A stretch of 64,000 nt of DNA from Muribaculaceae bacterium (lineage in GTDB: Bacteria; Bacteroidota; Bacteroidia; Bacteroidales; Muribaculaceae): NCBI GenBank assembly GCA_022510425.1, contig JAFLTO010000001.1, positions 62,001-126,000 on the forward strand, written 5' to 3'. The position numbers and the translations under genes are program-made. Within the stretch, counting starts at the first letter, position 1; the number at the start of each line of letters is the position of its first letter. Below the pieces are notes generated by a model. That model worked only from the letters and a program-made list of their open reading frames with translations. It did no database searches and was not told the origin of the DNA. Shown here one piece after another: positions 42,630 to 45,296 of this stretch.

Positions 42630-43967
42630 TTAAATAATGCCCTGACCCATCATAGCATCAGCTACTTTCATGAAACCGGCGATGTTTGCACCTTTCATAT
42701 AGTTGATATAACCGTCAGGTTGCTTACCATATTCAACGCATGCTGAATGGATATTATTCATAATTTCATGAAGCTTGGCATCAACTTGTTCAGCACTCCA
42801 TTGGAGGTGTTCGGCATCTTGAGTCATTTCAAGACCCGAAGTAGCTACTCCACCGGCATTGACTGCCTTCCCCGGACAGTAAGTTACTTTTGCAGAAATA
42901 AATTCATCAATAGCTTCAGGTGTACAACCCATGTTACTTACCTCAGCACACAAAAGAACTCCATTCTTTATGAGCATCTTTGCGTCTTCGCCGTCAAGTT
43001 CATTCTGAGTGGCACAAGGAAGAGCTATGTCCACTTTCTGTTCCCATGGTTTTCTTCCGGGGAAGAAAGTAGAACCGGGGAATTTTTCAGCATAAGGTGC
43101 CACGATATCATCTCCTGATGCTCTAAGTTCAAGCATATAGGCGATCTTTTCTTTATCAAGACCGGCGGGATCCAGAATATAACCATCAGGGCCTGATATA
43201 GTTATAACTTTTGCTCCAAGTTCAGTGGCTTTTTCAGCTGCACCCCATGCCACATTACCAAAACCGGAAATAGCAATAGTTTTACCCTTGATGTCAAGAC
43301 CTTTTGTTTTCAAAACATCCTGTACAAAATAAAGAGCACCATAGCCTGTTGCTTCCGGACGGATTCTGGAACCTCCAAAGCTCAGACCCTTACCGGTGAA
43401 TGTACCAGTATTTTCACGCGCAAGTTTTTTGTACATACCATACATATACCCTACTTCACGGCCTCCTACACCTATATCGCCTGCAGGCACGTCACGGTCA
43501 GGACCAAGATTTCTCCATAGTTCAAGAATAAAGGCCTGGCAGAATCTCATGATTTCAGCATCACTCTTTCCTCTTGGGCTAAAATCAGAGCCACCTTTGG
43601 CACCACCCATAGGAAGAGTGGTCAGAGCATTTTTGAATGTTTGCTCAAAACCAAGGAACTTGAGAATGGAGAGGTTTACTGATGCATGGAAGCGAATACC
43701 TCCTTTGTACGGACCAATGGCATTGTTAAACTGAACACGATAGCCAATGTTGTTCTGGACTTCTCCTTTGTCATCTACCCATGTCACACGGAAAGTAAAG
43801 ATACGATCCGGTTCTACCATTCTTTCTATTATACGGGCTTTTTCGAATTCGGGATGACGATTATAAACTTCTTCAACTGAGAGAAGAACTTCCTTTACAG
43901 CCTGGAGGTATTCTTTTTCACCTGGGTGTTTTGCCTCCAAATCGGTCATGATTTGATTAATGTTCAT
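42630..43967 (-). CDS. gdhA: NADP-type glutamate dehydrogenase
   Basis: 445 aa; YKGGIRFHASVNLSILKFLGFEQTFKNALTTLPMGGAKGGSDF, PAGDIGVGGREVGYMYG. Confidence 0.97.
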   Translation of the reverse strand: MNINQIMTDLEAKHPGEKEYLQAVKEVLLSVEEVYNRHPEFEKARIIERMVEPDRIFTFRVTWVDDKGEVQNNIGYRVQFNNAIGPYKGGIRFHASVNLSILKFLGFEQTFKNALTTLPMGGAKGGSDFSPRGKSDAEIMRFCQAFILELWRNLGPDRDVPAGDIGVGGREVGYMYGMYKKLARENTGTFTGKGLSFGGSRIRPEATGYGALYFVQDVLKTKGLDIKGKTIAISGFGNVAWGAAEKATELGAKVITISGPDGYILDPAGLDKEKIAYMLELRASGDDIVAPYAEKFPGSTFFPGRKPWEQKVDIALPCATQNELDGEDAKMLIKNGVLLCAEVSNMGCTPEAIDEFISAKVTYCPGKAVNAGGVATSGLEMTQDAEHLQWSAEQVDAKLHEIMNNIHSACVEYGKQPDGYINYMKGANIAGFMKVADAMMGQGII

Positions 43968-44109
43968 GTTATTAGATTAGATTTTTTGGTTAGAAGATTG
44001 TGCAATTAATTAGTCTTTCAATACTTTACTATATGTTATGCTGCACATTTACTTTCATATTGCAATCAAATATGCTTTACAACATATAGTTCCTTATATG
44101 TTTCTCTTG

Positions 44110-44140
44110 CAAAAATAAAGTTTAATTTGATTCTACCAAA
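44110..44140 (-). promoter_or_regulatory. gdhA promoter
   Basis: Minus strand TTTG (44140-44137), 19-nt spacer, TATTTTTG (44117-44110). Confidence 0.65.
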
Positions 44141-44173: not shown

Positions 44174-44290
44174 AAAAAAAGGAACCGATAAAAACCGGTC
44201 CCCTTCGAATAATTAGGATTAGGCGTCGAATTGTTTTTCAATAATCATGTTTTGGCTGTGACGCCTATAAGTAAATGCCTAATCCTTATT
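44174..44290 (-). ncRNA. Candidate structured RNA ending in an intrinsic terminator, upstream of the gdhA promoter
   Basis: 10-bp inverted repeat aggattaggc (44215-44224) / gcctaatcct (44277-44286), competing 7-bp pair aggcgtc (44221-44227) / gacgcct (44260-44266), then minus-strand hairpin ggaccg...cggttcc and U7 (44174-44180). Confidence 0.4.
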
Positions 44291-44348
44291 ATCGTTACCT
44301 TTTCGTGTTTCGCTCTTTAATTGTAAAACATTCTTTCTTATAAAATGT

Positions 44349-45296
44349 TTGTTAAACAATGTTAAAAATAAATATTTTGATAAACAACCCATTTTAACTA
44401 AATTCGCATATCTTCTTGGAGATCCACTTAATCAACAACATAATCTCACAAGAATAAAAGTATTACCAATATCTTTGAAACTAAATAAGAAATATCGTAT
44501 CACTCTTGAAGACGAATCCTCTTTAGAAAAAAGGATAGATATTTCCACAACTACATATTGGCTATTAATTGTTTTGATAGGTATTGCTGTTGTCGCCGGA
44601 GCTTTCGGTATGTTTATTCTTGCTTATACCCCAATGAAAAGTTATCTGCCGGGCTACTTGAAGGAATCGGAAAGAACTGCAACCGAGGAGCAACACATCA
44701 GATTAGATTCGTTATCAAAAGTGTATGAGATAAACGAAGCATATATCTCAAGCATATTAAATGCTCTGAATCCGTCTGAAAAAGAGAATATTGGAACCTT
44801 AATTGACCATAAACCCACCCCTCTGTCGTTAGATTCTCTGATTTCAGCAAGTGAAGAAGAAAAGAAATTTATGGAGAATATAAGAGAAAGGGATAAATAC
44901 AATATAACTTATACTTCACCGGCAGCAGCACAAACTATGATGTTTCAATCTGTTAACAAATCTGCTGTTATTTCAGATAACTCTAAAAATAAATATCAAG
45001 TCGAAATTATTTTACCAATAGGAGCTCCAATTTCAACAATTGCAGATGGTAAAGTAATTTCTATTGCATCTTCTCCAAAGGTTTCAGGTGGTTATGAAGT
45101 TATTATTCAACACCCTAAAGGTTTCTTGAGTAAAACAAGCCGCCTCTCTAATCTAATGGTGAAACCCGGCGACAGGGTTTCTGCAGGACAAATCATAGCC
45201 GGAGGAACCTCTTCTTATGGACAGAAAGAAAATCTTATAACATTTGAACTTTGGCATGACGGCGATCCTTTGATACCTTCGCAATATATCAATTGA
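44349..45296 (+). CDS. LytM/M23-like membrane protein, probably catalytically degenerate
   Basis: 315 aa from a TTG start (start uncertain); TM helix, PIGAPISTIADGKVISIASSPKVSGGYEVIIQHPKGF...LITFELWHDGDPLIP. Confidence 0.8.
   Translation: MLNNVKNKYFDKQPILTKFAYLLGDPLNQQHNLTRIKVLPISLKLNKKYRITLEDESSLEKRIDISTTTYWLLIVLIGIAVVAGAFGMFILAYTPMKSYLPGYLKESERTATEEQHIRLDSLSKVYEINEAYISSILNALNPSEKENIGTLIDHKPTPLSLDSLISASEEEKKFMENIRERDKYNITYTSPAAAQTMMFQSVNKSAVISDNSKNKYQVEIILPIGAPISTIADGKVISIASSPKVSGGYEVIIQHPKGFLSKTSRLSNLMVKPGDRVSAGQIIAGGTSSYGQKENLITFELWHDGDPLIPSQYIN

Follow-up and report, generated by a model that had tools for sequence, protein, structure and literature searches.

The window, a 64,000-nucleotide stretch of DNA from a Muribaculaceae bacterium, hosts what its sequence indicates is a real, free-standing small RNA, here called E1, adjoining gdhA on the minus strand. 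We propose with moderate confidence that E1 is a target-mimic sponge (decoy) of a second RNA, E2, which lies in the trailer of tRNA-Thr(UGU). The proposal draws on the E1 family, its independence of gdhA, the architecture of E2 and the reciprocal complementarity of the two RNAs in nine genomes. A fuller picture, in which a tRNA-Thr-linked regulatory RNA of a gut Muribaculaceae genus is countered, in one subclade, by a dedicated start-site-mimic sponge beside gdhA, in a phylum without Shine-Dalgarno-led initiation, is offered more tentatively, as a roughly even prospect. The features on which the argument turns are collected in Table 1.

Table 1. Features at the E1 locus (positions in the window) and the E2 core of the same genome.
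Feature	Position	Strand	Basis or remark
gdhA, glutamate dehydrogenase, neighbour	42630..43967	-	named from the sequence and by the earlier note
Independent gdhA promoter, TTTG-N19-TATTTTTG	44110..44140	-	read directly in the sequence
E1 structured core and terminator	44174..44286	-	fold z -6.4; covariance-model homologues in 9 genomes
A-rich 5' extension of E1	to about 44316	-	possible only
P1 closing stem, 5' arm, AGGATTAGGC	44277..44286	-	pairing kept in 98.9% of cells across 9 homologues
P1 closing stem, 3' arm, GCCTAATCCT	44215..44224	-	as for the 5' arm
P2 small hairpin, GGC-GUCACA-GCC	44254..44265	-	kept in homologues
E2-complementary segment GCCAAAACAUGAUUAUUGAAAAACAAUUCGACGC, putative target mimic	44223..44256	-	reciprocal best partner with the E2 seed
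Intrinsic terminator (hairpin 44206-44177, U-run to 44174)	44174..44206	-	13 pairs, 4-nt loop, U7
Putative E1 promoter region, TTAACA-N4-TTAACAAAC, about 20 nt, GTTTTACAAT	44324..44365	-	motif recurs upstream of homologues
E2 core in the window's genome	G000:C18:12478-12505 (L108)	-	

E1 is predicted to be roughly 115-145 nt long and to end at its own terminator. Its 117-nt minus strand has a folding energy of -38.6 kcal/mol, whereas shuffled sequences average -18.8 ± 3.1 kcal/mol (z -6.4; 0 of 200 as good). The fold is closed by P1, a 10-bp inverted repeat that is perfect (AGGATTAGGC at 44286-44277 with GCCTAATCCT at 44224-44215), as an earlier note on this DNA had claimed. That note also described a bulged terminator hairpin followed by U7; the terminator and its U-run stand, but the hairpin is not noticeably bulged. 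It is the one terminator-like site found on the minus strand (44206-44177), where 0.3 would be expected on both strands, and the plus strand near E1 yielded none. The small hairpin P2 reads GGC..GCC except in G366, where it becomes AGCGU..ACGCU, a paired change read by eye with a MAFFT misplacement set aside. An Rfam scan of the window returned no family at gathering scores and, at E values up to 5, a single chance hit, to the opposite strand. The earlier note had not recognized the element as 6S, SRP, tmRNA, RNase P or a named riboswitch.

The first relative of E1, in genome G024, was found with a 191-nt query, and the covariance model R1 was built from these two sequences. In the Muribaculaceae genus to which the window belongs, R1 identifies nine strong members in 111 genomes. 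Across the family (297 genomes), it yielded further same-genus members and otherwise weak matches, none of them convincing outside the genus; an order-wide search likewise gave none outside the genus, an absence that is weakly supported there, since 11 candidates were scored per genome. Ranked by gdhA similarity, the top nine genomes (94-100% identity; 94-97% in the E1-bearing relatives) are precisely those with E1, and E1 thus marks one subclade, in which it is present as a single copy per genome. The relatives are MAG assemblies. An origin in a mobile element or phage was considered and set aside: E1 has no match in viral contigs or plasmids and is single copy.

All eight further homologues carry the P1 stem and a hairpin after it. 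The terminator hairpin is present in all nine copies, with a clean U-run in six and a degraded one in G024, G369 and G370. These homologues, one of them without gdhA beside it, support the suggestion in the earlier note of a free small RNA of ~115 nt. Of the conservation and covariation that the note had put forward as a check, the former is borne out in nine genomes, while the latter is weak: P1 shows one double change, C-G to U-A, and 116 of 500 shuffles do as well, because the stem is almost invariant. Both P1 arms (3' arm, 44215-44224) and the adjoining tail, AAUUAUUCGA / AATTATTCGA (44205-44214, minus strand), are nearly invariant. Pairing with E2 leaves this invariance unexplained; it may point to a further partner or to a protein site, and searching ~30% of the genome for a partner of the P1 arms and tail brought up none that stood out. 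The next genomes by gdhA similarity, G354, G389 and G380, carry a remnant upstream of gdhA (L036, L037 and L038) consisting of CCTRATCCTGATTTT plus a terminator. This shortened or rearranged remnant, not seen at that place in the other relatives examined, is perhaps an ancestral or decaying form of E1.

E2, which lay out of sight of the earlier note, came to light through weak R1 matches (L012, L021-L025) first taken for chance A-rich matches. Behind tRNA-Thr(UGU) come, in order, a short variable hairpin, the single-stranded stretch GCGUUGAAUGUUUUUCAUAAUUUUGUUUUGG and, on the same strand as the tRNA, a terminator with its U-run. Its core, CCGCCAAAACAAAATTATGAAAAACATT, is the reverse complement of the R1-matched element and occurs in 65 of the 111 genus genomes with no more than one mismatch, namely in all nine that carry E1 and in 56 where E1 was not found; the same search gave no genus matches with 2 or 3 mismatches and no control matches. 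A search of 392 other genomes of the order, allowing up to 3 mismatches, did not find the core, and an Rfam scan of E2 returned nothing beyond the tRNA. E2 is single copy as a rule, although a few genomes, G371 among them, have two. Among the E2 loci (L012 and L102-L121, including L108), 22 copies were compared, chosen by pattern and hence biased toward conserved ones: 28 consecutive positions are invariant and the adjoining six nearly so, with AAUGUUUUUCAUAAUUUUGUUUUGGCGG unchanged in 22 of 22. Both flanking hairpins vary, and the terminator stem retains its pairing through base changes. The seeds of small RNAs are usually much shorter than ~31 bases; a run of ~31 unpaired invariant bases is striking in itself, and this near-invariant segment is arguably more remarkable than E1.

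The complement of the E2 segment, CCAAAACAAAATTATGAAAAACATT, resembles the consensus Bacteroidetes translation start; these bacteria lack Shine-Dalgarno-led initiation. E2 also contains an anti-start-codon 11-mer, UGUUUUUCAUA, that occurs in the seed of FopS of B. thetaiotaomicron. At the 653 gene starts predicted in the portion of the genome that was sampled, 89 pairings with E2 reached -14 kcal/mol or lower, compared with 57 ± 13 (maximum 88) for 60 shuffled seeds; no single strong mRNA candidate stood out in the ~30% of the genome sampled.

The E1 loop GCCAAAACAUGAUUAUUGAAAAACAAUUCGACGC and the 31-nt segment of E2 form ~30 pairs with one or two bulges. Over the nine genomes, the energies of this segment pairing are -33.3, -33.3, -33.3, -33.3, -33.0, -35.2, -33.2, -23.7 and -26.6 kcal/mol. 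Full-length E1-E2 duplexes range from -40.2 to -59.6 kcal/mol against shuffle means of -21 to -29, and in eight of the nine genomes the native duplex beats all shuffles (300 of each partner); a shuffle reaches it in G370 alone. G370 also has the weakened segment pairing of -23.7 kcal/mol. Its E2 bears a G to U change, the only such change in the E1 clade, facing the only E1 copy without the partner C. We scanned 861 kb of the host genome (~30%) on both strands in 68,716 sliding windows. With the E2 segment as query, E1 ranked first of the 68,716 (-33.3 versus -27.2 kcal/mol for the next); with the E1 loop as query and the E2 locus included, E2 was best (-31.9 versus -24.2), the loop's own antisense excepted. 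In E1 the pairing segment is partly taken up by a weak hairpin and adjoins P1, and is thus not freely open. Candidate targets of the E1 loop in the nine genomes were mostly antisense to coding sequence (e.g., superoxide dismutase) and formed no coherent set.

Based on these observations, we suggest that E1, closed by P1, would present an A-rich loop region whose AUUAU(U)GAAAAACA imitates a translation start site, and would form a duplex of about 30 bases with the unpaired segment of E2. Both RNAs would have to be transcribed and to meet. E2, made as the trailer of tRNA-Thr(UGU), would repress mRNAs, probably by covering their start codons in the manner of FopS in B. thetaiotaomicron, and E1 would titrate E2 so that its targets are relieved. 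Because E2 is also conserved in genomes that yielded no E1, E1 has most likely adapted to E2 rather than the reverse; on this ground we infer E1 to be the decoy and not the regulated partner. If this is correct, E2 would tie tRNA-Thr output to translation control across much of the genus, and its complement E1 offers an immediate, testable partner for it. To our knowledge, few base-pairing RNAs are understood in Bacteroidetes.

Sponges of small RNAs are known from enterobacteria, where the chb spacer acts on ChiX, SroC on GcvB and 3'ETS-leuZ on RyhB (PMC8383071). A conserved segment of each is complementary to another small RNA's seed, and the same applies to E1: the complementarity to E2 is conserved in nine genomes, with E2 presumed to be a working small RNA, and the partner is itself conserved as an RNA in the same genomes. 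Those sponges belong to a different phylum, and the E1-E2 pair is predicted from sequence. The arrangement is also reversed relative to 3'ETS-leuZ: there the sponge is tRNA-derived, whereas in the present pair it is the likely small RNA that is tRNA-derived, and a dedicated structured RNA is the candidate sponge. A literature search found no such sRNA-sponge pair for Bacteroidetes, which is not proof of absence. On the E2 side, the closest comparison is with the FopS RNAs, which repress SusC mRNAs at the start codon in B. thetaiotaomicron (PMC11697453). E2 has in common with FopS/GibS the 11-mer UGUUUUUCAUA and a single-stranded seed followed by a terminator, although the identity amounts to 11 nt of the published 35-nt seed consensus (R1') and the Rfam scan lists no such family. 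FopS is multicopy, whereas E2 is as a rule single copy, attached to tRNA-Thr, preceded by a 5' hairpin and otherwise different in its seed; we do not claim that E2 belongs to the FopS family.

Two established families were rejected as identities for E1. Like 6S RNA and 6S-Flavo (RF00013, RF01685), E1 is free-standing, and in it too a closing stem encloses a large unpaired region; however, it lacks the long apical rod, is confined to one subclade and is unmatched by either covariance model in the window. The 6S models gave no match in the host genome either, but RF01685 was silent in every control genome, so that its genome-wide absence is not established. Bacteroidales-1 (RF01693) is likewise unmatched in the window, and the Bacteroidales-1 RNA of this genome lies elsewhere (G000:C56).

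Other explanations of E1 were weighed against the sponge proposal. It is unlikely, though it deserves some weight, that E1 is a trans-acting small RNA or a protein-binding RNA whose match to E2 is incidental or a relic of inverted duplication; the complementarity could indeed stem from descent by such a duplication. P1 and the 3' tail are conserved as much as the loop although E2 pairing needs neither, and an A-rich loop resembles consensus start regions in any case. These points are countered by the reciprocal best pairing in the sampled genome and by the retention of that pairing in nine genomes whose intergenic flanks align poorly. We also consider it rather improbable that the roles are reversed, with the tRNA-Thr trailer as the sponge and E1 as a regulatory small RNA that it keeps in check. 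This reading has a precedent in 3'ETS-leuZ of E. coli, a tRNA-derived spacer that sponges small RNAs (PMC8383071), and E1 does have its own promoter-like region and terminator; but E2 is equally invariant in the 56 genomes without a found E1, which calls for another cause of its conservation, and E1 is the younger, clade-restricted partner.

A cis-acting role, as a switch-like leader or attenuator of gdhA, was the alternative offered by the earlier note, and we regard it as very improbable. E1 does directly precede gdhA on the same strand in eight of nine genomes, and the window sequence does offer two mutually exclusive pairings, the competing 7-bp pair AGGCGTC (44266-44260) / GACGCCT (44227-44221) being perfect, as had been claimed, and overlapping P1 at the shared GCC bases. 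Yet this pairing is 3-8 kcal/mol weaker than the P1 fold, and in the homologues it has unpaired cells at each inner-helix position and no covariation, in contrast to the conserved alternative structures of a riboswitch. Co-transcription is equally at odds with the locus. The gdhA promoter sits downstream of the E1 terminator exactly where the note had read it, a Bacteroidetes-type promoter occupies this place in 8 of 8 neighbouring cases, and genus relatives without E1 carry an equivalent one. In G024, E1 has an M23 peptidase gene on one side and a convergent MFS transporter gene on the other, with no gdhA beside it; the gdhA of that genome is on a different contig, away from any copy of E1. 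The separate promoter past the terminator and the gdhA-free copy thus point to a free-standing RNA rather than a gdhA leader, and by this genomic evidence gdhA is not needed for E1. The G024 copy (L002) has its terminator hairpin without a U-run, and the assembly has 6% contamination, which leaves the join at this locus in some doubt. A leader peptide, MIIEKQFDA (ATG ATT ATT GAA AAA CAA TTC GAC GCC TAA), was also rejected: its start or frame is lost in G024, G369, G366 and G370. Finally, that the plus strand is the functional one, making the locus a second E2-like small RNA with the same seed, can hardly be right: that strand does read GAAUUGUUUUUCAAUAAUCAUGUUUUGGC and the palindrome folds there too (weak antisense model matches), but the terminator with its U-run is on the minus strand in six of nine copies and the hairpin in all nine, and no terminator-like site was detected nearby on the plus strand.

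The 5' UTR of gdhA (43980-44103, minus strand) contains an inverted repeat of its own, ACATATA-AGGAAC-TATATGT, as well as recurring stretches that resemble AACATATA, which are not obviously retained in relatives. Upstream of E1, TTAACA-N20..22-GTTWTA recurs in most of the nine homologues despite differing upstream genes (an M23 gene, ridA or a yicC-like gene), and most copies retain it as TTAACA..GTTATAA, suggesting a transcription start near 44316. This motif is unlike the usual TAnnTTTG promoter; the conserved tandem TTAAC repeats followed by GTTWTA (44365-44324, minus strand) are possibly the site of an alternative sigma factor or an activator. As a regulon signature, TTAACA-N-GTTWTA is not enriched in the genome (20 occurrences versus 28 for the reversed control). 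A similar TTAAC tandem also precedes a BlaI/MecI-like gene (L068).
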